Positions 9,814 through 57,871 of a stretch of DNA of 64,000 nucleotides are shown piece by piece. Below the pieces are notes generated by a model that worked only from the letters and a program-made list of their open reading frames with translations, searched no databases and was not told where the DNA came from. The first letter of the stretch is position 1. Each line of letters starts with the position of its first letter. Made by a program: the position numbers and the translations under genes. Source of the DNA: Earliella scabrosa (Eukaryota > Basidiomycota > Agaricomycetes > Polyporales > Polyporaceae); the NCBI GenBank assembly GCA_022605405.1, contig JABYQQ010000011.1, positions 372,001-436,000 on the forward strand, written 5' to 3'.

Positions 9814-11389
9814 CTATCCAATCCTCGACTGCTCTTCGAGACCTGTGTCTTCCTCTCCCGAATCTAACGACTCGACCAGTAAATCAGCTACTCCGGACGT
9901 CTCGAATTGATCGGATCCTCGCTCATTGAGGCCCGCTGATCCTTCCAACATCCGGGCCACGTCAGCCAAGAGCAATTCGTCTTCGTAGAGCGCACGTCGG
10001 ATGGATAGCTCTCTTGCCTCCTCGGCTGCTTTCTCGGCCTGCTGTGCTGCCTTGACTTCCTCCGCCGTATGCCATAGTTGGGTCTCTATCAATAGTGCGT
10101 GACGCCCATTGACAGTCAGCTACATCGCTAGGCAGACAGTACGGTCGGACAATAACGCACCGTACGTTCTGAGCAAAACTCGAACAGAGACTTGAACGTT
10201 GTGACAGCTGTCCGGGAGGCGGCGGACTATCTCCGCTGTCCACCACCGCCCATCGTACTCCGCGTCGTTTTCCCAGAGGAACAAGTGGAGCTGACGCAGC
10301 ATAGTGAACCGAGACAGGATGTCCAGCATCTCCTCCCCGAGGAGGAGGTCCAAAAGGCCCGCGCGATCCACCCAGTATATATATATGTCCATTCTGGTCG
10401 GGCGGGATATAAGTTAATCTTGAGACTTCGCAAAGCCGAACCCGAATGGACACTGCTTAGGATAGATCGCACGGTGCGAATGGGGTCTGAAGGTGCATTG
10501 TCCAATATGGCGTATGGTATATCAAGCTGTTCAAGCCCATGGAAGGTCTGGATGCATTGCAAGGTGCTCTCTTGGTTCTGATCAGAGATGATATGACATA
10601 TTTATGGCAGAAACAATCATACCTGAGATTCCGTCACCAACGTTCAGGCACAGGTTCTTGACAGAGCTGCCAAATGCGTGCGCTGGCCAGGGCCCCAGGG
10701 CGCATCTATCGCCCTACAAGACGAGGTAGGTCAATTCAAGCAACGTGCGCAGGTTGGGGGGAATATCGTACCCTGAACACGAGAGTGCATAGGCTCTCAC
10801 ATCTACCAGGCTTGGTGTCTAGCCATGACATAGGTGCGAGCGCCACTGGCGAATGATTGCTCGGGCCTAGATCTCCACTCCAGTTGAGGTTTAGATAGCG
10901 TAGTTGACGCGATGATGAGACAAAACGGAGGATGGGTCGGAGGACAATGAATCGAACATCCAACCATAGCTCTACTATGTTGGACCAATGATACAAGCCC
11001 GTGTCAGCGTATCGGGGTGGGTACACCGTCCAATCGACGTATCGAAGGTCCAGTCCTTTACAATTCTTCAGTAGGAGAGGAAGCGGCATACGACCGAATG
11101 GGACGTAGCGGTTCCGGAAGTGACTATAAACAGTCAATCGAACGACCAAGTCTGCGAAACGCGGTGTTTCCTGGAGCGTTCGGACAAGGAGATTGATGTC
11201 GGAAGCCTTCCGAAGTTCAACTTCGTAGAGGAGGTTGTATCGGCTGCGAGGGAGCCACGCCGAGCAGACCAGGGCGGTCTGGCGCCAGATGGGATACGAA
11301 TGTTTCTTGAGCACTCTGTCATCTGCGTCAACACGGCAGGAGTCGAGGATTTGCTCGCAGACCTCATGGGGCAGGCGACTCTTGTTCAT
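9814..11389 (-). pseudogene. F-box protein gene, copy A, frameshifted in a TA run
   Basis: This is the inverted member of the F-box family seen at 26191, 44476 and 56334. The start MNKSRLPHEVCEQILDSC is an F-box core with LP near the N terminus, followed by WRQTALVCSAWLPRSR. Exon 1 runs 11389-10772 and is followed by a 30-codon exon and a third exon beginning near 10580. Between about 10376 and 10386 a TATATATATAT run shifts the frame by one. Upstream the frame reads ...KINLYPARPEW, and downstream the family sequence resumes as YWVDRAGLLDLLLGEEM. The last exon (about 10085-9814) encodes a helical, acidic tail (ALYEDELLLADVARML) like that of the copy at 56334. F-box proteins recruit substrates to SCF ubiquitin ligases, and the partner here is unknown. 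The shift could be a sequencing slip in the dinucleotide run. Confidence 0.7.
10376..10386. repeat. TA dinucleotide run at the frameshift of F-box copy A
   Basis: An 11-base alternating TA tract lies inside exon 3 of F-box copy A, exactly where the reading frame changes. Slippage in this tract explains the frame loss. Confidence 0.6.
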
Positions 11390-11490
11390 GTTGGTGAGTG
11401 CGGAGATGGCACAGGAGGTGGGGGAGCTGAGGAAGGGAGTCGGATGGCTGCGGATGCCCGGGCACCACCACTTATGACCGGTGACCAACA

Positions 11491-26118: not shown

Positions 26119-26736
26119 CGGCAGTCATACACCCAACGGTGCCCTCGCATACTCAGCTCTTCCTCCCTCATCTCCCCCAGACTCGCCGACATGGACAACA
26201 ATCTCCTCCCCATCGAGGTTTGCGAGCATATCATCGACTCCTGCCGTGCCGAAGTTGGCTGGTGGCTCAGACACCACTCGTATCCCACCTGGCGCCAAAC
26301 CGCCCTCGTCTGCTTGGCCTGGCTCCCTCGCAGTCGACTTAACCTCCTCTACGAAGTTGCTCTCCAGAGTGCGTCCAACGTCGACCTTCTTCTGCGGGCG
26401 CTTCAGGAGACACCGCACTTTGCGGACCTGGTAGTCCGATTGACTATTCATGGACAAACTTATGTTCCCTTTTCCCGAATGCCGCTTCCATTGCTACTAA
26501 GGAAATGTGTAGCATTGAACCTCGGATTGGTTGATTGGAATCGGTATCCACCTCGATATGTGGACACGTGCCTCCATCCGTGGTCCAGAATAGTACATCT
26601 CGATCTGAAGGTCCAATTGAGTGTCCTCCGAAGCAGCTGCCGGTTTGTTTGGTCGTTGCATCAACTCCAAGATCTGTATCTTCGGTCGAGTGAACGTGTG
26701 GGCCGAGGCGTGCGATCAAATCGCTCAGTCATGGTA

Positions 26737-26741
26737 TCACC
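26737..26741 (+). repeat. Target-site duplication, left
   Basis: tcacc directly precedes the 5' LTR and recurs directly after the 3' LTR. Confidence 0.9.
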
Positions 26742-27087
26742 TGTTGAACTTAGGGTTATCCGGCACTGTCCGGACCAATATGTCCCCATATGGACTTGTG
26801 GCTATGCGTTCACATGACGCACAGCATGGGCTATGCTTCTTCGTTACTATATATAGATAACTCTGCATCTGTACGATAGTTCTTTCTTTCCGGACTTTAC
26901 CTCTACGTACCAGTGCGTTCTACGATGTTCTGGATAGTTCCAGACCTTATGTCTGACTCAGACTTGGTGCTCATCCTCGCGTCATACTGACTCATCCTCG
27001 CACCATAGCCTCGTATGCCTCTTACTCATCGTCTTGTGGCTAACATGTGACTGCTTTCTACGCTTACTCAGCTACCTTCCCTACGTC

Positions 27088-27095
27088 TATATAAG
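27088..27095 (+). promoter_or_regulatory. TATA box in the 5' LTR
   Basis: TATATAAG. Transcription would be expected to start about 25-35 bp downstream, which is where the repeated leader (27122) begins. The 3' LTR has the same box at 33043-33050. Confidence 0.55.
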
Positions 27096-27145
27096 CAGCT
27101 CACATTTCGCCTCTGCTCTTCAGTCGTTCGCTCACTGACTGAAGA

Positions 27146-27200
27146 GTAAGTCTCATACATACATATGCTCTCTACTTACTTACTGACTAAGTACTTGTAG
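27146..27200 (+). other. Intron-like segment in the LTR leader
   Basis: A 55-nt stretch starts GTAAGT, ends TTGTAG and has an internal CTGAC branch-like motif. Its flanks (27122-27145 and 27201-27222) are found joined without it at 27242-27287, as if spliced. Confidence 0.6.
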
Positions 27201-27241
27201 TCTCTCTCTGTTCGACTTACAGGTACTTATCTATGCAATAT

Positions 27242-27287
27242 AGTCGTTCGCTCACTGACTGAAGATCTCTCTCTGTTCGACTTACAG
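27242..27287 (+). repeat. Spliced-looking duplicate of the LTR leader
   Basis: 46 bp equal to bases 27122-27145 joined directly to 27201-27222, lacking exactly the GT...AG segment between them. The same arrangement exists in the 3' LTR. Confidence 0.7.
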
Positions 27288-27321
27288 TCGGCTCCCAGCC
27301 TTCCAGGTCTGAAGTTCATCA

Positions 27322-27338
27322 GGTTATGAGCCCTGCGC
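27322..27338 (+). other. Primer binding site matching the initiator tRNA-Met anticodon arm
   Basis: GGTTATGAGCCCTGCGC directly follows the LTR. It is complementary to the anticodon arm of eukaryotic initiator tRNA-Met (GCGCAGGGCUCAUAACC), not to a tRNA 3' end. Drosophila copia and yeast Ty5 use this half-tRNA priming. Confidence 0.75.
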
Positions 27339-27834: not shown

Positions 27835-28380
27835 ACCACAGTTTTGGAGCCGACACCAGCATCTCCTCCCTCTGAGGCGGAAGTCGAGGATCTGATTGAC
27901 TCCCAGTCGTCGTCTGACTCCTCTGACTACAAACCCACCGTCGACTCTTGTCAGGAACTTCCACACGTTCTCGACGAGGAATACCCTGCCGATTCTCATC
28001 TCCATCCGGAGGACGGCTTCTGGTACAACTGTCACCGGAGTCCTTGTCCTCATCGGTACAACGGGGTTCCCGTTCAACCTGAAGATTATCCTGACACATT
28101 CAAGTGGGCTTTCCCCTCTCCTGACCAAGAGGATTTCCTTGCTGGAGTCAACACTGCCCTTCCAGTCGCATCAGACACACCCTATACCACTCCTCTTCCT
28201 TTCATCGTCCTAATCCCTCCTACTCCGGAGGTTATCCCTGAGCCAATCGAGACTCTCCCTCCTCCTCTCATCGAGTTACCTCCTCCTATTGCAACACCGC
28301 TTCCACCGGTCGCACCGGTAACAACATCCGTAGACTTCTCGGAGGACTATCTCGACTCATCGCACTTTCTCTTATCAATC
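27835..28380 (+). other. Open gag-frame extension without an ATG
   Basis: The gag-pol frame is open for 182 codons before its first ATG. The sequence is protein-like: acidic and Ser-rich (DSQSSSDSSDYKPT), then HPEDGFWYNCHRSPCPHRYN, then a Pro-rich part. No ATG in any frame was found between about 27330 and 28380. It may be translated from a non-AUG codon or through splicing, or be a remnant. Confidence 0.45.
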
Positions 28381-31300
28381 ATGGGAGACGTCAAGCTCGA
28401 CTCTATCCCTTCCCTTTCGTCGGCAAACCAGTACACCGACTGGTCTGCCAAGATGAAGGGCTACTTCATCTTCATGGGCTGTTGGGACGTCGTCAACGGC
28501 AAGACCAAACGTCCAACTGCTGCCGACAAGCAGGAGTCCTGGGACAAGCTCGACGGGCAGGCTCGCGGCATGATGTACATGCGGGTCGCTCAGAGCTTCC
28601 ATTACATCCTCGATGCGGAAATTCTCGACACCGTTACAACCAGTGGGTCCTCTACCACTACATCTCGGGAACAGACCGCAGCGGACATGTGGAAGTCCCT
28701 GAAGGACAAGTTTGGCACGCCGAACAGCGCTCACGTCTGGGGACAGTTCGAGACCCTTGTGGCTGAACCTCGGATGAATGAGCAGAAGCCCCTCCAGGAT
28801 CAGATGATGCGTATCGTCAACCGCATGGATGACATCACCAAGAACAAGGTGACGCTCTCTGCCCAGATGAAGGCCCTCCTCCTTCTGTCGAAGATTCCGG
28901 AGTCTTATCGGTCTATGATCTCTGCGCTCATGGCGACCATCGACGTCGACAAGGTCACTGTCGAGGACATCATGTCCAAGACCTTGGCCGAGGAGTCGCT
29001 GCGCAAGGCCGGACAATCCGCGAACCGGGTCTCGCAGACCAAGCCTAAGCCTAAGGGTCCTTGCTCTCACTGCGGTGGCTCTAATCATCATGAGTCTAAC
29101 TGCTGGGACAAGCATCCCGAGAAGAAGCCCAAGGGCAAAGGCAAGGGAAAGGGAAAGGCGAAGGACAAGGATAAGGACAAGGACAAAGGGAATAACAAGG
29201 ACAATCAGCCCCATGCGCATACCGTCGTCGAGTCTCAGTCTGTAAATGTAGTCGCGTCGTCTAACATTGTTGGTTCTTTCTACCCCGAGGCCCTCGTCGC
29301 CTCTAGTGAGAACTGGACTGCATGGCTGATGGACTCAGGTGCTTCTCAGCATATCACGGGCGACCTAAGTGACTTCTCCGAGTATCAACCGTTTGATACG
29401 CCCATCAGCTTCAATACTGCTGATGCGAGCAACATGATCCTTGCTCTCGGGAAGGGCACAGTCCGTGGTAACACTTGGGTTGATGGTGACAAAGTTCCGA
29501 TCGCGCTCACCCATGTGTACTACATCCCGAAGTTGAGAGGTCGTATCTTCTCGACAGGCACCATTGAACGCAACGGGTACTCCCTTGTTCAAGGAGATGG
29601 GAAGATGTGCATCTTTGACAAGCTGCCGGAAGGCGCTGTCAAATTTGGTTCGACGATTCGGATCAAGGGTCGCAAGATCCTTGAAGCGGAGTACAACGTC
29701 CTGAGCAATATCTACTGGGCTAAGCTCGAACTTCACAATGGCCAGCGTGTTCATCTTAACGTCAGCCGCTTTCGTACCTTGCACCGTCGCTTTGGTCATC
29801 TCGGCAAGGATGCGCTGCGCCATCTCCCGAAGAACGTCCGAGGGGTTGATTCTGTTGATTCCCCTGAAGACGAAGATGAACCGTGTGAGGGATGTGCCTG
29901 GGGCAAATCCACTCGTCTCCCCTTCCCACCTTCTGATAAGCGTGCTACGGAACCACTCGAGCTCGTTCACACCGATCTTGATGGCCCGATGCGCACCCAA
30001 GCTATCGGAGGTTACAAGTATTTCGCCGGTTTCATTGATGACTACTCCGGACTCGCCCGTGCTTACTACCTTAAGTCGAAGTCGGATGCGTTCCAAGCGT
30101 TCCTCGACTACAAGGCGTGGGCTGAGACCCAGACCGGTCGAAAGATCAAGAAGGTCCGCTCGGACCGAGGGGGAGAATACACTTCTACCGAGTTCTCTGA
30201 GCTTCTTCGTTCGCACGGGATCGAGCACCAGAAGACTATGCCTGGCTCTCCGCAGCAGAATGGACGCGCTGAGCGCTGGAACCGTACTATCGTCGAAAAA
30301 GCCATGGCCATGCTCCATCAGGCAGGTCTTAGTCACGGTTTTTGGCAACTCGCCGTTGATGCAGCCGTTCATATCTACAATCGTCAACCGATGCGTCGAC
30401 ACAAATGGCAATGCCCCATCACCAAGTGGGACGGAACCGTTCCGGACGTCTCCTACTTCCGAGTGTTCGGGTGCAAAGCCTTTGTACACGTGCAGAAGGC
30501 AAAGCGCGAAGGGAAACTCGATAAGAAGGCTGTCGAGATGATCTTCGTGGGGTATGAGTCTGGTTCCAAGGGGTATAAGTTTTGGAATCCAGCCAACCGC
30601 TCTATCGTAGTGTCTCGCGATGTGACATTCGATGAAGAGTCTTTCCCTGCTCGTAAACTCCCCGGCAATCATCCTGTTACCCCGGATGACCATCCGTTCC
30701 CAGATGATCAGTCTGATAAGGCTTCTGAAGCCGATGTCGACGGTCATGAGGACGACCTCCATCCCGAGATTGTTCCTGAACTCCCAGATCTACCACCTGA
30801 CCCTCCAGTGGATGCTCAGCCACCTCCAGCTGAAGCGCCTCCTCCAGCCGACGCCCCTGCTCCTCCGCCGCTGCAACCGCCTCAACCGCCTGCTGTACCA
30901 CCGCCTAAGCCTGCTCACAAGCGAGGACGTCACCCTCCAGTGGGAGAACAGCCTCCCAGCCTTGCGCGTGACAGACCACGGCGTGAGAACGCGGGTAAAC
31001 GGTCCGAGTCGAAGACTCGTGATAACGTGTACGGCGACGAGCCACCGGCTAAAGTCGATGCCCGGACTGATCCAGATGGCACGCAGCGAGAGGACCAAGC
31101 GCTTCTCATGTTTCTCATGGCGTCTCAGTACAAAACTGGCATTCCGAACTCCCACAAGGAAGCCATGAAGTCGCCTGAAGCTGAGAAATGGCGTGATGCG
31201 GAGAAAGCGGAGTATGACTCGTTGCTCGAGAATAAGACTTGGGTCCTTGTCCCTCGTCCGAAAGATCGGCACGTGGTCTCCAACCGCTGGGTCTATGACA

Positions 31301-32685
31301 TCAAGCACGATGGGCGGTACAAAGCTCGTCTAGTCGCTAAGGGTTTCACTCAGGTGTGGGGCGAGGACTATCACGAGACCTTCTCCCCTGTGGCGCGGTT
31401 CGAGTCTATCCGGTACCTTCTCGCGCATGCAGCGCTTGAGGACTGGGACATCGAGTCAATGGATGTCAAGACCGCGTTCCTCAATGGCGATCTGGATGAG
31501 GAGATCTACATGGAACAGCCGGAAGGTTGGATCGTTCCTGGCAAGGAGGATCACGTGTGTCTGCTGAAAAAGGCAATCTATGGTCTTAAGCAGGCATCCC
31601 GTCAGTGGAATGTGAAAATCCACCAGTCGCTTATTAGCCTGGGATTCAAACGGACCTATTCCGATGCCGGGATCTATGTATATCGGCGACAAGGGGGGGA
31701 TCACGTCACCATCGTCGTTCTTTATGTCGACGATCTACTTCTCCTCGGCGATCAGCCTGGCCACATACAGCACGTGAAGCGTTCGCTTTCTAAGCAGTAC
31801 AAAATGACGGACTTGGGACCAGTTCAGCGGTTCCTTGGTCTTCGCATCACTCGTGACCGTGCTACGCGGATCATCGAGATCGACCAGGAAGAGTACATCC
31901 AGTCCGTTCTCGAGCGCTTTCACATGGCCGACTGTAAGCCGTCGCGTACCCCTCTCCCTGCTGGTGCTGTTCTAGAGTCATCTGAGCACACCGCCACCGA
32001 TGCGTCGCGTCAGCGCTATCAGAGCTTGATTGGCAGTCTTCTGTACGCCATGCTCGGTACGCGGCCCGACATAGCCTTTGCTGTCACGCGGCTTTCGAAG
32101 TTCAATGCCAATCCCTCAGACGCGCATCTTCACTATGCCAAGTATGTCCTCCGGTATCTTCAGGGTACTAAGGCGTACCGGCTGCGCTACCAGGGAGCGT
32201 CTAATGACGGTCTGATTTCGTACTCCGATTCGGACTGGGCTGAAGACCGTGATGATCGGCATTCTACCTCTGGCTTCATCTTTCTGATGGCAGGTGCTGC
32301 TATATCGTGGGCATCGAGGCGTCAGCCTACCATTTCGCTTTCCTCGACCGAAGCGGAGTATAAAGCGGCCTCTGACACTTGTCGTCAATTGGTGTGGCTG
32401 AGGACGTTCGGTGAAGAACTCGGCGATGACATGTCTCGACCAACTCCCATGTGTCTTGACAATCAGGGGTCTATCTTCCTGTCCGTCAATCCCGTGATCG
32501 ACCGCCGGACCAAGCACATCGAGGTTAGATACCACTTCATCCGAGAGCAGGTGGAGTTGGGATCGACCGAGATCTTCTATGTAGCGACTGCGGATCAACT
32601 CGCCGACGCTCTGACTAAGAATGTGCCTTTGGCAATTCAGTCGAAGTTTGTCCAAGAGATTGGTCTTGCTTATGTCACATCTTGA
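28381..32685 (+). CDS. Copia gag-pol polyprotein
   Basis: The polyprotein makes the particle protein and the protease, integrase, reverse transcriptase and RNase H that copy and insert the element. From the ATG at 28381 (MGDVKLDSIPSL) it runs 1434 codons without a stop. Landmarks are a Gag core (NQYTDWSAKMKGYFIFMG); a CCHC zinc knuckle (CSHCGGSNHHESNC, 29062) with a Lys-rich tail; protease DSGAS (29332); GAG-pre-integrase with H..H and CEGC; and integrase D, D and E at codons 29974, 30163 and 30271, giving D-X35-E. Reverse transcriptase contains DVKTAFLNGDL and YVDD (31723), and RNase H contains DSDWAED and STEAEY. A Pro-rich linker (about 30780-30960) separates integrase and reverse transcriptase. 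Nothing is missing. The open frame extends upstream to 27835, so the true N terminus is uncertain. Confidence 0.93.
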   Translation: MGDVKLDSIPSLSSANQYTDWSAKMKGYFIFMGCWDVVNGKTKRPTAADKQESWDKLDGQARGMMYMRVAQSFHYILDAEILDTVTTSGSSTTTSREQTAADMWKSLKDKFGTPNSAHVWGQFETLVAEPRMNEQKPLQDQMMRIVNRMDDITKNKVTLSAQMKALLLLSKIPESYRSMISALMATIDVDKVTVEDIMSKTLAEESLRKAGQSANRVSQTKPKPKGPCSHCGGSNHHESNCWDKHPEKKPKGKGKGKGKAKDKDKDKDKGNNKDNQPHAHTVVESQSVNVVASSNIVGSFYPEALVASSENWTAWLMDSGASQHITGDLSDFSEYQPFDTPISFNTADASNMILALGKGTVRGNTWVDGDKVPIALTHVYYIPKLRGRIFSTGTIERNGYSLVQGDGKMCIFDKLPEGAVKFGSTIRIKGRKILEAEYNVLSNIYWAKLELHNGQRVHLNVSRFRTLHRRFGHLGKDALRHLPKNVRGVDSVDSPEDEDEPCEGCAWGKSTRLPFPPSDKRATEPLELVHTDLDGPMRTQAIGGYKYFAGFIDDYSGLARAYYLKSKSDAFQAFLDYKAWAETQTGRKIKKVRSDRGGEYTSTEFSELLRSHGIEHQKTMPGSPQQNGRAERWNRTIVEKAMAMLHQAGLSHGFWQLAVDAAVHIYNRQPMRRHKWQCPITKWDGTVPDVSYFRVFGCKAFVHVQKAKREGKLDKKAVEMIFVGYESGSKGYKFWNPANRSIVVSRDVTFDEESFPARKLPGNHPVTPDDHPFPDDQSDKASEADVDGHEDDLHPEIVPELPDLPPDPPVDAQPPPAEAPPPADAPAPPPLQPPQPPAVPPPKPAHKRGRHPPVGEQPPSLARDRPRRENAGKRSESKTRDNVYGDEPPAKVDARTDPDGTQREDQALLMFLMASQYKTGIPNSHKEAMKSPEAEKWRDAEKAEYDSLLENKTWVLVPRPKDRHVVSNRWVYDIKHDGRYKARLVAKGFTQVWGEDYHETFSPVARFESIRYLLAHAALEDWDIESMDVKTAFLNGDLDEEIYMEQPEGWIVPGKEDHVCLLKKAIYGLKQASRQWNVKIHQSLISLGFKRTYSDAGIYVYRRQGGDHVTIVVLYVDDLLLLGDQPGHIQHVKRSLSKQYKMTDLGPVQRFLGLRITRDRATRIIEIDQEEYIQSVLERFHMADCKPSRTPLPAGAVLESSEHTATDASRQRYQSLIGSLLYAMLGTRPDIAFAVTRLSKFNANPSDAHLHYAKYVLRYLQGTKAYRLRYQGASNDGLISYSDSDWAEDRDDRHSTSGFIFLMAGAAISWASRRQPTISLSSTEAEYKAASDTCRQLVWLRTFGEELGDDMSRPTPMCLDNQGSIFLSVNPVIDRRTKHIEVRYHFIREQVELGSTEIFYVATADQLADALTKNVPLAIQSKFVQEIGLAYVTS

Positions 32686-32696: not shown

Positions 32697-33276
32697 TGTT
32701 GAACTTAGGGTTATCCGGCACTGTCCGGACCAATATGTCCCCATATGGACTTGTGGCTATGCGTTCACATGACGCACAGCATGGGCTATGCTTCTTCGTT
32801 ACTATATATAGATAACTCTGCATCTGTACGATAGTTCTTTCTTTCTGGACTTTACCTCTACGTACCAGTGCGTTCTACGATGTTCTGGATAGTTCCAGAC
32901 CTTATGTCTGACTCAGACTTGGTGCTCATCCTCGCGTCATACTGACTCATCCTCGCACCATAGCCTCGTATGCCTCTTACTCATCGTCTTGTGGCTAACA
33001 TGTGACTGCTTTCTACGCTTACTCAGCTACCTTCCCTACGTCTATATAAGCAGCTCACATTTCGCCTCTGCTCTTCAGTCGTTCGCTCACTGACTGAAGA
33101 GTAAGTCTCATACATACATATGCTCTCTACTTACTTACTGACTAAGTACTTGTAGTCTCTCTCTGTTCGACTTACAGGTACTTATCTATGCAATATAGTC
33201 GTTCGCTCACTGACTGAAGATCTCTCTCTGTTCGACTTACAGTCGGCTCCCAGCCTTCCAGGTCTGAAGTTCATCA
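32697..33276 (+). repeat. 3' LTR
   Basis: 580 bp, matching the 5' LTR with one observed substitution. It ends at ATCA, followed by the tcacc duplication. Confidence 0.95.
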
Positions 33277-33281
33277 TCACC
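33277..33281 (+). repeat. Target-site duplication, right
   Basis: tcacc, identical to 26737-26741. Confidence 0.9.
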
Positions 33282-43934: not shown

Positions 43935-44348
43935 AAGTGTCGTTGTACAACCACATCTGTGTTCCGAAGACACGAGTAGAGAAGCTGTATACCACAGAAG
44001 CTTGCGAGCGGGTTGATAGCGGCGCGGAATGCGGCAGTGTACTGGTCCTGGTCCCGACGTACTAGGATTTCGAGTTTGTCTACATTCTGCCTCATAAATT
44101 CACAAACTTGATACACTCTCTGAGATACGGTACATTCTGCAAGCGGTGGTTGGCTGCCAGTGGGTACTTGGTGTGATCCCACAGACGGACGACGATGAGG
44201 GACATACCGGAGGTGATGAAGATGCAAGGCTATTACTGTGTACCTGCCGCATGTCAAGTGCGGTGGAATAGCGGCAGTGCGCACCGCTTATCGTTTGTCT
44301 TCCACGCTTCGGGCTCCTGCTGGGAAGATTGATCAGAGCGCGAACACT

Positions 44349-44379
44349 GACCGGCGTCCTAGGGTCTATTGATTATATA
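44349..44379 (+). promoter_or_regulatory. Core promoter of F-box copy C: conserved box plus TATA
   Basis: GACCGGCGTCCTAGGGTC at 44349-44366, followed by TATATA at 44374-44379, about 100 bp before the ATG. The pair is conserved in copy D. Confidence 0.55.
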
Positions 44380-44475
44380 CATATCCCCCATGAGCCTCAG
44401 GCCATCCGCAGCATTCGTCTCTTCGCCCCTCCCCTCCGCTCTCTCACCTCTCGTATCCTCGATCTACTCGCAGAC

Positions 44476-46078
44476 ATGAACAACAGTCGCCTCCCCATCG
44501 AGATTTGGGAGCACATCATCGACTCCTGCCGCAAACCTCAGGACTGGTATGAACGAATGTGGTATCACACCTGGCGCCAGACCGCCCTCGTCTGTTCGGC
44601 CTGGCTCCCCCGCAGCCGACTCAACCTCCTCTACGAAGTCGAACTCTCTGATGCGTCGGACGTCGACCTCCTTCTGCGTACGCTCCAGGAGGCACCGCAC
44701 TTTGCGGACATGGTACATAGATTGAGCGTTAATACTTATATTAAGAGCTATCAGCCACTTGCTCGGATGCCGCTTGTGCTGCTGTTGAAGAACTGTGTAG
44801 CACTCCGTCTGTACGACACCGACTGGGCTGAGATCTATCCGTCTCGACATGCTGATAGGTTCCTCCATCCCTGGTCAGGCAGGATAGTAGAACTACGATT
44901 GGCAATTTGTAGCGGAGCCCTCCGAACCATTATCCGCTTTATCTGGTCGTTGCATCACCTGCAAGATCTGTGGCTTCGGTGGAATAAACATGAGGAATCA
45001 AGTCGCTTCATTACTAAGTGGGGGCCAGATGTCCAGGCTGGCAAATGCCATAGCTTACGATCTCTCAAGTTTGAGGTGCGAAATATCCTATTCCACGCAT
45101 CTGTGGCGCGTATATACTGAAGTTCTGTCCTAGAGTGCGGACTGTGCCCTGGTTCTCTGGCCAGTGTCCGCGTTCGGCTGCTCTGTCAGGAGTTTAGAAC
45201 TGAACGTTACGGATGGGGTCTTAGGTATGATTTCTTCTGCCCTGAACATCACTACACCTCTGATCGGCACCAAGGGAACACTTTGCAGTGCCTCAAAACC
45301 TTCCGCGGACTCGAACGTCTAACAGTTTGCTGCTTGTTGGACGATCCACCGTCCGACCCTGGCATTCGCGCGAGATCTGCCTCAAGCGCACGCACGCGTA
45401 CATTGCGATCTGTTCTGGGGAGCGTGCACTCGGGTGGGGCCCTGCTATCGCTCAAAGTTGACGTGTGGCCCTACGGCTGGTGGCACGGCGGTTCATCTTA
45501 TCATGTCGACCGCACAGGCCTTGCGGACCTCCTCCTCGCAGACGAGATGCTGGCCAGCCTGTCTCGGTTCACGGAGCTGCGCCAGCTGCACTTCGCCCTC
45601 ACGGAGAACGACAGGGAGCACGACGCCCAGTGGTGGACGGCGGAGATGGTGCGCCGCCTCCCTGACAGCTGTCACGCCACTGTCTCCGTCGAGCTGGATC
45701 TAGACACAGATAGTGCGTCATGCAGCCCTGTCCGATCTGTGGAGACGATTGCTCACGCATGTCATCTTATTTGTAGGGCGACACCTGTGGCATACGCGGG
45801 AGGAGATCCAGGCAGCCGCTGAACAAGCGAAGACAGAAGCGCGTAGGAGGGCTGCTGCGGTCCGTATGCTGCGATCTCTCAGAGAGCACCCCGCCCTTCC
45901 TCCAGTAGACGTCAAGGCATTGCTTGCAGCAGACGTCTATTACAGTGTGCCGTCAACACCTATCAAAGCTACCATGCAGCCCCCGCCGACTTGGAAGCCT
46001 CTGCGCCGACGGTGGAGCACCGGCTCTGCATGGCCACAGGGCGAATGTTGGGAGCGACGTCACTTTCTGGGTCTCTAA
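44476..46078 (+). CDS. F-box protein, copy C, the intact family member
   Basis: This is a predicted SCF ubiquitin-ligase adaptor; its substrate is unknown. The start MNNSRLPIEIWEHIIDSC follows the conserved promoter box and a TATA element, which rules out longer upstream frames. Exons are 44476-45075, 45134-45224, 45275-45712 and 45777-46078, all with GT/AG introns of 50-64 nt, summing to 477 codons with the stop. The F-box is at residues 1-50 (LPIEIWEHII, then WRQTALVCSAWLPRSR). Leucine-rich segments follow: LVLLLKNCVALRL, CHSLRSLKF, CSVRSLELNV, LERLTVC and LRQLHFAL. The last exon gives a charged helix (EEIQAAAEQAKTEARRRAAA) and SLREHPALPPVDVKA. Exon 1 is nearly identical to that of the copy at 56334, while the tail resembles copy B. 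It is the only member here with no disruption. Confidence 0.8.
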
Positions 46079-55708: not shown

Positions 55709-56230
55709 ATGACATACCTGGCGGCTTTCAATCGCGAGTTATCGGCCATGAAGTTTATGCTCGGAAGAAGCACGTCTGCTGTGCGCCGCGAGGTGGACGA
55801 CCTGCGAGAACTATCTCACGGGTTGTCAATCTATGAGTACTATAGCTGGGTTCTTTGGATGCTGGTGGACACGCTTCAAGCCGCAGAAGCTTCTCAGCGG
55901 TCGACAGCGGCGCGCTACCGGTTCCAAAGTACTCCGAGTCCGAGTTCAACTACATCCCACAAATTTGATCCACTCTCAGAGAAACGGTGCAATCTCAGCA
56001 AGCGGTGTGTGGACGCACTTGATGTAGTGTCACGGAGAGACGACGGCCAGAAGAATACGGAAAGAAATGAAGATGCACGGTCATTGCGGTGTACCTGCCG
56101 CATGTCAGAGGCGTGGTGGAATAGCGGCAGTGCGCACCGCACCGCTTATCGTTTGTCTTCCACGCTTGAGGCTCCTGCTGGGAAGCTCAATCAGGGCGCG
56201 AACACTGACCGGAGTCCTAGGGTCTATTGA
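55709..56230 (+). CDS. Possible small coiled-coil ORF in the upstream module of F-box copy D
   Basis: The frame is open for 173 codons. Its first 60 residues (LAAFNRELSAMKFMLGRST, then RREVDDLRELSHGLS, YYSWVLWMLVDTLQAAEA) look like a helical protein, and the orphan module at 41.6 kb preserves a related frame up to a stop. In units B and C the same position reads TGA instead of CGA, so the frame is closed there. The distal half is probably non-coding. This may be a decaying small gene next to each F-box gene, or only conserved upstream DNA. Confidence 0.25.
   Translation: MTYLAAFNRELSAMKFMLGRSTSAVRREVDDLRELSHGLSIYEYYSWVLWMLVDTLQAAEASQRSTAARYRFQSTPSPSSTTSHKFDPLSEKRCNLSKRCVDALDVVSRRDDGQKNTERNEDARSLRCTCRMSEAWWNSGSAHRTAYRLSSTLEAPAGKLNQGANTDRSPRVY
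55803..55820 (+). promoter_or_regulatory. Palindrome-like element upstream of F-box copy D
   Basis: TGCGAGAACTATCTCACG, the same variant as at 41682, about 530 bp upstream of the ATG at 56334. Confidence 0.35.
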
Positions 56231-56237
56231 TTATATA
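56207..56237 (+). promoter_or_regulatory. Core promoter of F-box copy D: conserved box plus TATA
   Basis: GACCGGAGTCCTAGGGTC at 56207-56224 and TATATA at 56232-56237, the same spacing to the ATG (127 bp from box start) as in copy C. Confidence 0.5.
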
Positions 56238-56333
56238 CATATCCCCCATGAGCCTCAGGCCATCCGCAGCATTCGTCTCTTCGCCCCTCCCCTCCGCTCT
56301 CTCACCTCTCGTATCCTCGATCTACTCGCAGAC

Positions 56334-57871
56334 ATGAACAACAGTCGCCTCCCCATCGAGATTTGGGAGCACATCATTGACTCCTGCCGCAAACCTCAGG
56401 ACTGGTATGAACGAATGTGGTATCACACCTGGCGCCAGACCGCCCTCGTCTGTTCGGCCTGGCTCCCCCGCAGCCGACTCAACCTCCTCTACGAAGTCGA
56501 ACTCTCTGCTGCGTCGGACGTCGACCTCCTTCTGCGTACGCTCCAGGAGGCACCGCACTTTGCGGACATGGTACATAGATTGAGCGTTTACACTTATATT
56601 AAGAGCTATCAGCCACTTGCTCGGATGCCGCTTGTGCTGCTGTTGAAGAACTGTGTAGCACTCCGTCTGTACGACACCTACTGGGCTGAGATGTATCCGT
56701 CTCGACATGCTGACAGGTTCCTCCATCCCTGGTCAGGCAGGATAGTAGAGCTACAATTGGCAATTTGTAGCAGAGCCCTCCGAACCATTATCCGCTTTAT
56801 CTGGTCGTTGCATCACCTGCAAAATCTGTGGCTTCGGTGGGATGAAGTTCGGGAATTATTCATTAATAAGTGGCGGCCAGACGTCCAAGCTGGCAAATGC
56901 CATAGCTTACGATCTCTCAAGTTTAAGGTGCGATCTATCCTATTTCACGCATCTGTGGCGCGCATATACTGAAGTTCTATCCTAGGGTGGGGAATGTGCC
57001 CTGGTTCTCTGGCCAGTGTCTGCGTTCGGCTGCTCTGTCAGGAGTTTGGAACTGGACGTTACGAAAGGGGTCTCAGGTATGATTTCCTCTGCCCTGAACA
57101 TGACTACACCTCTGATCGGCACCAAGGAGACACTTTGCAGTGCATCGAAGCCTTCAGCGGACTCGAACGTCTAACAGTTTGCTGCTGGTTGGACGATCCA
57201 CCGTCCGACCCTGGCATTCGCGCCAGATCTGCCACCTCAAGCGCACGCACGCGTACATTGCGATCCGTTCTGGGGAGCGTGCACTCGGGTGAAGCCCTGC
57301 TATCGCTCAAAGTTGACGTGCGGCCCTCCGACTGGATGCACGGTTCCTCTTATGGTGTCGACCCCACGGGCCTTCTAGACCTCCTTCTCGGGGACGAGAT
57401 GCTGGCCATCCTGTCTCGGTTCCCGGAGCCGTGTCAGCCTCGACGAGAGCGACGGGGAGCACGACGCCCAGTGGTGGACGGCGGAGATGGTGCGCCGGCT
57501 CCCTGACAGCTGTCACGCCGCTGTCTCTGTCGAAGTGCATCTCAGGACGAGTGGTGCGTCATGCGGCCCCCTCCGATTTGTGGCGACAATTGTTCATGCA
57601 TGTCATGCTATTCTTAGACTACTGGCGACACCTGTGGCATACGCGGGAGGAGATCGAGACAGCCTGGCAAGTAGAGAGGGTAGCCGAGGAACTAGCCGAG
57701 GAACTAGCCGAGGAAGAAGTTCGTCAGCGAGCACTGTATGAAGACGAGTCGCTCCTGGCGGATGTCGTCCGCATGCTCGATGGAGACGGCACAATCTATG
57801 GACCGGAGCAGGAGCAGGGTGTAGCCGGCGCCGAGCAACTCGTTCGGGACGGGGATGAAGCGGATGTGTAG
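56334..57871 (+). pseudogene. F-box protein gene, copy D, truncated by an 11-bp deletion
   Basis: Exon 1 (56334-56927) is nearly identical to that of copy C and begins MNNSRLPIEIWEHIIDSC. Exon 2 (56986-57076) and the start of exon 3 (57127 onward) are also intact. Near 57425-57460, relative to copy C, 11 bases are missing within the segment corresponding to FTELRQLHFALTEND. The frame shifts there and stops at 57504-57506, so the product would lack the last leucine-rich part and the tail. The old last exon (57618-57871) is still readable and encodes RHLWHTREEIETAW, a repeated ELAEELAEE stretch and ALYEDESLLADVVRMLDG, like copy A rather than copy C. A shortened protein of roughly 390 residues with an intact F-box could still be made. 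Confidence 0.7.
57681..57714 (+). repeat. 12-bp tandem repeat in the last exon of F-box copy D
   Basis: Nearly three copies of tagccgaggaac, giving ELAE units in the old tail frame. It lies downstream of the frameshift. Confidence 0.8.

Follow-up and report, generated by a model that had tools for sequence, protein, structure and literature searches.

The window, by which we mean the whole 64,000-nucleotide (64-kb) stretch of Earliella scabrosa DNA analyzed here, carries a long terminal repeat (LTR) retrotransposon on its forward strand. Its 5′ LTR (TGTTGAAC..GTTCATCA; 26742..27321, 580 bp) pairs with a 3′ LTR at 32697..33276, from which it differs by one mismatch, at position 26891, and the pair is flanked by the target-site duplication TCACC (26737..26741 on the 5′ side and 33277-33281 on the 3′ side). 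Between the LTRs lie a conserved 14-nt primer-binding site (PBS; GGTTATGAGCCCTG, 27322..27335), which we take to be the complement of the anticodon arm of the initiator-Met tRNA, and a 1613-aa gag-pol frame (27844..32685) with the domains Retrotran_gag_2, Pol_BBD, rve, SH3_retrovirus and RVT_2. The order gag, integrase and then RVT_2 reverse transcriptase in a single frame, together with LTRs that run from TG to CA and a short target-site duplication, identifies the element as Ty1/copia (Pseudoviridae-type). Judged from its sequence, it is a young Ty1/copia element with a new LTR organization. Among the matches listed (120 of 3740), its protein relatives included sequences from Trametes sanguinea (75-77% identity) and T. 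cinnabarina (78% identity, 77% of the query); no DNA relative was matched among viral contigs. Rfam returned only tRNA in the 64-kb window and no match at E 0.5 in eight other LTR stretches. The insertion at 26742 interrupts an open frame (26191-26817, forward strand) similar to three others in the window (10736-11488, reverse strand; 44329-45120 and 56067-56972, forward strand); on inspection all four look like F-box-type proteins, and none had a Pfam match at E 0.01.

The leader part of the LTR contains the same sequence twice, once interrupted and once continuous. The first copy consists of E1 (27122..27145), a 55-nt putative intron, I1 (27146..27200; GTAAGT..CTGAC..TTGTAG), and E2 (27201..27222), whose last bases are AG. 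A 19-nt spacer, S (27223..27241), begins with GT and separates this copy from the second, E1′+E2′ (27242..27287), which is followed by the rest of U5 (27288..27321). E1 and E2 joined equal the second copy exactly (46/46 nt), in agreement with the earlier note. The TATA box TATATAAG (27088..27095), also reported there, ends upstream of E1, which starts 34 nt downstream of position 27088; we placed the presumed transcription start at 27122, going by where the second copy begins and by the distance to this box. The 3′ LTR, 5955 bp downstream, was likewise correctly described as having the same build (E1 33077-33100, I1 33101-33155, E2 33156-33177, S 33178-33196, E1′E2′ 33197-33242), and the single difference between the two LTRs lies outside the leader part. 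The AG/GT boundaries point to a second putative intron of 65 nt, I2 (27223..27287; GTACTT..TTACAG), composed of S, E1′ and E2′, with the first bases of S as its donor. This intron, the complementarity between the donor and the bases upstream of E1, and the possible preservation of introns, both taken up below, go beyond the earlier note. The motif ATGCAATAT in S is a candidate poly(A) signal, and the second copy a candidate 3′ R, that is, the acceptor of strong-stop cDNA. Scanning the window for exact direct repeats with a joined length of at least 22, a spacing below 300 and a 41-70 nt insert in the first copy recovered two places, both LTRs of this element, and the same scan recovered none from ten versions of the window in which single bases had been shuffled within blocks of 500 nt.

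We surveyed the host assembly (51.7 Mb, 48 contigs) for the family of this element and fetched 96 LTR leaders, including the two of the window; both LTR ends were located in 94 of these 96 loci, with 1-2 mismatches allowed. An equal 5-bp flank was present on the fetched 3′ LTR for 43 of the 46 5′ LTRs, and on both sides in five of the six LTRs that were neither 5′ nor 3′ partners. Leaving out L029, we classified 95 leaders. The full order E1-I1-E2-S-E1-E2 was found in 86 of them, and within these 86 the two copies of E1 were identical in 81 and the two copies of E2 in 85. The minority classes comprised four LTRs with E1-E2-U5, four with an extra A+E2 and one with E1-I1-E2-U5. Across the 81 LTRs of 580 bp, diversity was highest in I1 (0.0367), followed by U3 (0.0153), and was low in E1 (0.0050), U5 (0.0021) and E2 (0.0011). 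Several individual loci showed further rearrangements. In the element L013/L014, the 5′ LTR contains a 32-bp tandem duplication ahead of E1 that is missing from the 3′ LTR. In another family LTR, the start of U3 and the leader lie about 7 kb apart (G000:C4:378302 and 385212), and a further insertion has probably separated the two parts. L080 and L081 (G000:C23:421671 and 424409) are solo LTRs with E1-E2 only; they have the same flanks in inverted orientation and probably represent one insertion within an inverted segmental duplication.

The same plan recurs in other copia LTRs of this genome. The host assembly holds 101 RVT_2 matches and 108 exact occurrences of the PBS, which is common to the family and to all seven 5′ LTRs read from other groups. 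Besides those seven 5′ LTRs, we read 26 3′ regions of other copia copies and 33 further stretches preceding the shared PBS. The two-copy structure was present in 17 of the 26 3′ regions, some of which may stop short of an LTR (L130, for example); eight of the others had no copy and one, L143, had the spliced copy only. It was also present in 7/7 of the 5′ LTRs, which had been chosen from groups whose 3′ LTR had the structure. Among the 33 further PBS sites, an exact scan found five two-copy leaders and inspection by eye one degenerate example; two were truncated, keeping E2-S-E1′-E2′ or part of S-E1′-E2′, four had a one-intron form, its putative intron being S+E1′ (52 nt), L173 had E1-I1-E2 only, and 20 showed no second copy. 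The one-intron group probably also includes L142 and L146. In total, ten LTR sequence groups (the window family and nine others) have two putative introns and one group has one. At E 1e-3 the leaders of different groups matched each other only among the window family, L129 and L132 (72-82%), between L147 and L149 (44 nt) and between L139 and L170 (33 nt). The plan is lacking in the copia LTRs L172, L186 and L187, and in L162, and is thus not required for copia replication.

Reading these copies yielded three further observations. The spliced-only L143 and the full L194 flank one and the same RVT_2 match and may be the LTRs of a single element. In L172, L186 and L187, LTRs of a copia lineage whose frame measures 1836-1839 aa, and in the similar L188 and L189, which have no assigned frame, a donor-like AG/GTGAGT stands in U5 before the PBS with no second copy; judging from these letters, an intron could run across the PBS. 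Finally, 13 of the 33 sampled PBS sites (L163, L164, L168, L169, L171, L176-L178, L180 and L182-L185) belong to a short LTR, roughly 230 bp long (TGTCGGAAGTTGA..GCGACA), that shares this PBS and shows no second copy. It may be a small non-autonomous element, and its member L163 had no Rfam match.

The boundaries of the interrupting segments look like those of introns. In all 30 members that we read from DNA, E2 ends in AG and is followed by GT in the first copy; the first and second copies part immediately after E2 in 23 of the 30, and after 1-2 shared bases in the other seven. Within a set of 14 members, I1 runs from GT to AG over 52-61 nt and I2 (S+E1′+E2′) over 60-70 nt. Overall, both segments have the form of spliceosomal introns, with GT..AG ends, fungal length and a branch-like motif, although I1 of L132, L135, L147 and L148 showed no such motif. 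In the L147 and L149 groups, U5 is absent, the LTR ends at E2′ and, in the 5′ LTR, the AG takes in the first PBS base; in the 3′ LTR of L147, the end of I2 reads AA, and AG occurs only in its 5′ LTR. Removing I1 and I2 leaves E1-E2-U5, which is letter for letter the second copy plus the sequence downstream of it, and we therefore read the second copy as a record of the mature leader. The earlier proposal finds indirect support, in that the 55-nt segment has the look of a genuine intron and the pre-spliced copies point indirectly to its removal from RNA.

An alternative order of events is that a tandem E1E2-S-E1E2 arose first and that a 55-nt introner was later inserted into its first copy, a case that the earlier note had itself set against its proposal. 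Such an origin would fit the canonical form of I1 and its presence in one copy only, yet the ten groups differ in the sequence and length of the intron that they carry there, and the uninterrupted arrangement E1-E2-S-E1-E2 occurs in 0 of the 95 family LTRs. Nor does I1 behave as an introner would, with near-identical introns at unrelated places. Its last 30 nt (at most three mismatches) matched 91 places in the host assembly, all of them at leaders of this family's LTRs by comparison of positions by eye; I1 was not found outside these LTRs, and it differs between groups. We therefore give this order of events almost no credence.

The two copies evolve together. Outside the window family, the second copy is identical to its own first copy in 23 of 29 members, and the remaining six (L129, L131, L139, L147, L150 and L194) differ by 1-2 nt, the differing base of L147 lying outside the LTR. 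Where groups differ from each other, the same differences appear in both copies: 5 of 48 columns between the window and L193, 11 of 49 between the window and L132, 11 of 43 between L155 and L156, and 5 of 51 between L140 and L141. Mirroring was incomplete in L129 (6 versus 5 differences) and L131 (7 versus 5), each compared with the window, and between L149 and L150 (0 versus 1). The close relatives L140/L141, L147/L148, L149/L150 and L135/L137 differ in the final 1-2 bases that precede the second copy, and this variation at the left junction can be due to other start sites or to point changes. In each of the ten groups the second copy tracks the group's own exons, and it therefore seems to undergo renewal.

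These patterns bear on how the second copy came to be there. The earlier note proposed that a spliced leader was reverse transcribed and placed in the LTR by template switching, and this much stands, on indirect evidence, as the best reading. It further took the copy to have been fixed because LTRs are copied to both ends. In a version without renewal, a single accident would have recombined one spliced leader into one LTR long ago, to be inherited from then on. One ancestral event would account for the plan common to the window family, L129 and L132, but the tracking of each first copy by its second, with 23/29 identical pairs outside the family, and the between-group differences shared by both copies largely contradict it; we found no support for a single fixed accident and consider it very improbable. 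Renewal might instead have proceeded without splicing, if slippage, gene conversion or recombination homogenized the copies after one ancestral spliced copy had formed, and the 460-, 515- and 603-bp LTR classes are possible products of such recombination. Conversion, however, should often move or erase I1 or alter the number of repeats, whereas no family LTR among the 95 lacks just I1 or has gained a third full copy. Homogenization also leaves unexplained both the AG/GT at the E2/S junction in 30/30 members and the stem at the start site described below. We judge it unlikely, if less so than the single ancient event.

We consider it probable, from the sequence comparisons above, that the second copy serves as a 3′ R for strong-stop cDNA of the spliced leader and is written anew from the first copy at replication, with the introns being kept by way of the 3′ LTR. 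RNA from the 5′ LTR would begin at E1 and lose I1 and I2, giving the leader E1-E2-U5-PBS, and the strong-stop cDNA primed at the PBS would copy U5, E2 and E1. This spliced cDNA could not pair collinearly with the E1-I1-E2 of the 3′ LTR and would pair with E1′E2′, the 3′ R, with a poly(A) site presumably near S/E1′. The new LTR would then combine U3-E1-I1-E2-S from the 3′ end of the RNA with the E1-E2-U5 of its spliced 5′ end. In this way each replication would rewrite the second copy from the first, while the introns would be retained.

Errors in such a cycle could produce the minority LTR classes: pairing with the first E1 would give E1-E2-U5, keeping I1 and losing I2 would give E1-I1-E2-U5, and use of the acceptor CTGAAG inside E1′ would place an extra A before the second E2. 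Indeed, the extra A of the 603-bp class is the outcome expected of the acceptor CTGAAG/A inside E1′. The E1-E2-only and extra-A classes look derived, because a sequence tree of 28 copies places them among full copies. The E1-E2-only element L053/L054, whose LTRs are identical, sits among full copies, as do two extra-A elements, which are not nearest neighbors and differ at 21 positions over about 1.85 kb (median 22). Each rare class can also be explained by plain recombination between repeats: the 460- and 515-bp classes also fit simple deletion between direct repeats, and the 603-bp class also fits slippage. Two insertions, L040 and L041/L042, have in common a change in the first-copy E1 that is absent from their second copies, and they fit rewriting only on the condition that the two LTRs of their common parent differed. 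Two ideas were abandoned. One, that the final base of S, a T in 75 and a G in 11 of the 86 full LTRs, reflects copying of the cap, was dropped, as four-gamete incompatibility is common throughout the LTR and the T/G site is incompatible with other sites no more than the rest. The other, a simple precursor with E1 joined to S by a short shared word, gave 0 matches at up to one mismatch.

If both LTRs carry the same introns, splicing would have to act at one end of the RNA and not at the other. A computed fold offers a possible basis for this distinction. A left arm, CTCTTCAGTC (27116..27125), which straddles the presumed start, pairs with a right arm, GACTGAAGAG (27137..27146), which contains the first base of the I1 donor. 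The predicted energy of the window stem is -18.2 kcal/mol with the upstream 12 nt and -2.8 without them, and 1/1000 shuffles were as low. All ten members folded in this way (9 groups) gave similar results, from -15.8 to -25.1 kcal/mol with the 12 upstream nt and from -2.8 to -8.6 without; shuffled upstream bases were as low in 0-16/1000 cases for nine members and in 74/1000 for L145. L170, L173, L181 and two one-intron members also fold, with 0-5/500 shuffles as low, or 33/500 in the case of L173. The donor GT itself falls within the right arm of several groups, and pairing persists although the sequences differ. By these calculations, a stem across the start site is probable.

The upstream bases would be absent from RNA that starts at E1, so the whole stem would form only in RNA of the 3′ LTR, where it would mask the I1 donor and hide the first E1 from the cDNA. 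The predicted cost of opening the donor is higher in the 3′-LTR context in 10/10 members (from 5.1 to 9.7 in the window and from 5.9 to 16.2 in L149), and the cost of opening E1 is lower in the second copy in 10/10. The donor cost shifts little in the one-intron group (8.5 to 9.3 and 8.6 to 9.7). As a control, we calculated pairing probabilities: that of the donor GU is lower in the 3′-LTR context in 4/12 members (L132, L139, L144 and L145), and the mean donor pairing exceeds that with shuffled upstream bases at 0.05 in only 5/12. This control weakens the functional reading of the stem and raises the chance that rewriting by a spliced leader is right while the stem is a promoter palindrome or a packaging signal and has no part in splice control. 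The left arm lies upstream of the presumed start and hence is also core-promoter DNA, which suits that alternative, as do the reversed effect in the four members just named and the small effect in the one-intron group. It accounts less well for the donor GT within the right arm of several groups, for pairing that persists despite sequence change and for the rise in donor opening cost in every one of the ten members. We regard a promoter or packaging role as quite possible, though clearly short of an even chance, and donor masking remains a guess drawn from the folds. Masking of the donor, if true, would explain why none of the 95 family LTRs has lost I1 alone.

Taken as a whole, the proposal describes a distinct LTR-retrotransposon strategy, in which the spliceosome would make the 5′ R, a pre-spliced and intron-borne 3′ R would be rewritten in every cycle, and a stem cut by the transcription start would distinguish the two LTRs, with the result that one end of the RNA would lose by splicing the very introns that the other end retains. 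We advance this complete scheme tentatively, at slightly below an even chance.

Several known systems resemble parts of this scheme. Drosophila copia and yeast Ty5 are primed by part of the initiator-Met tRNA, and they have in common with the window element the order gag-INT-RT, a TG..CA LTR, a 5-bp target duplication and a PBS of the anticodon-arm type. We know of no split or spliced R in elements of the copia/Ty5 type. In foamy viruses and the HTLV/BLV group, a splice donor lies inside R, and splicing starts within R as it would in the window element. In those retroviruses, however, the intron runs into the body and subgenomic RNAs result, whereas the LTR groups described here would have two short introns within the LTR or reaching the LTR/PBS edge, and their LTRs, as a further difference, contain a pre-spliced copy. 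The reference list of PMC10886601 names Ty1/copia elements that are primed by part of the initiator-Met tRNA. Ogre, EVADE and BARE1 have introns in the body, whose splicing makes subgenomic RNAs, according to passages of PMC12786077. Their RNA is spliced, as that of the window element would be, but the splicing described in those passages is not that of the R used in strand transfer, which is what we propose here. In minus-strand transfer of the U3-R-U5 type, cDNA of the RNA 5′ end moves to the R at the 3′ end, as outlined in part of PMC10085805. The standard arrangement has one collinear R at both RNA ends, whereas the DNA of the window LTR has an intron-bearing and a pre-spliced copy; splicing would assemble its 5′ R, and a separate copy free of introns would serve as its 3′ R. 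Among the titles and opening lines of abstracts listed from an open-access full-text library, none described a pre-spliced copy of R within an LTR.

An intron in R-U5 is expected to be lost at the first cycle through spliced RNA, yet such intron-like segments persist in ten LTR groups of one genome, next to the processed product. If the proposed cycle is true, it would be a way for a retroelement to coexist with the spliceosome, and it would leave a natural record of splicing in DNA through forced concerted evolution. It would also provide a possible answer to how identical LTRs act differently at the two ends of one RNA.
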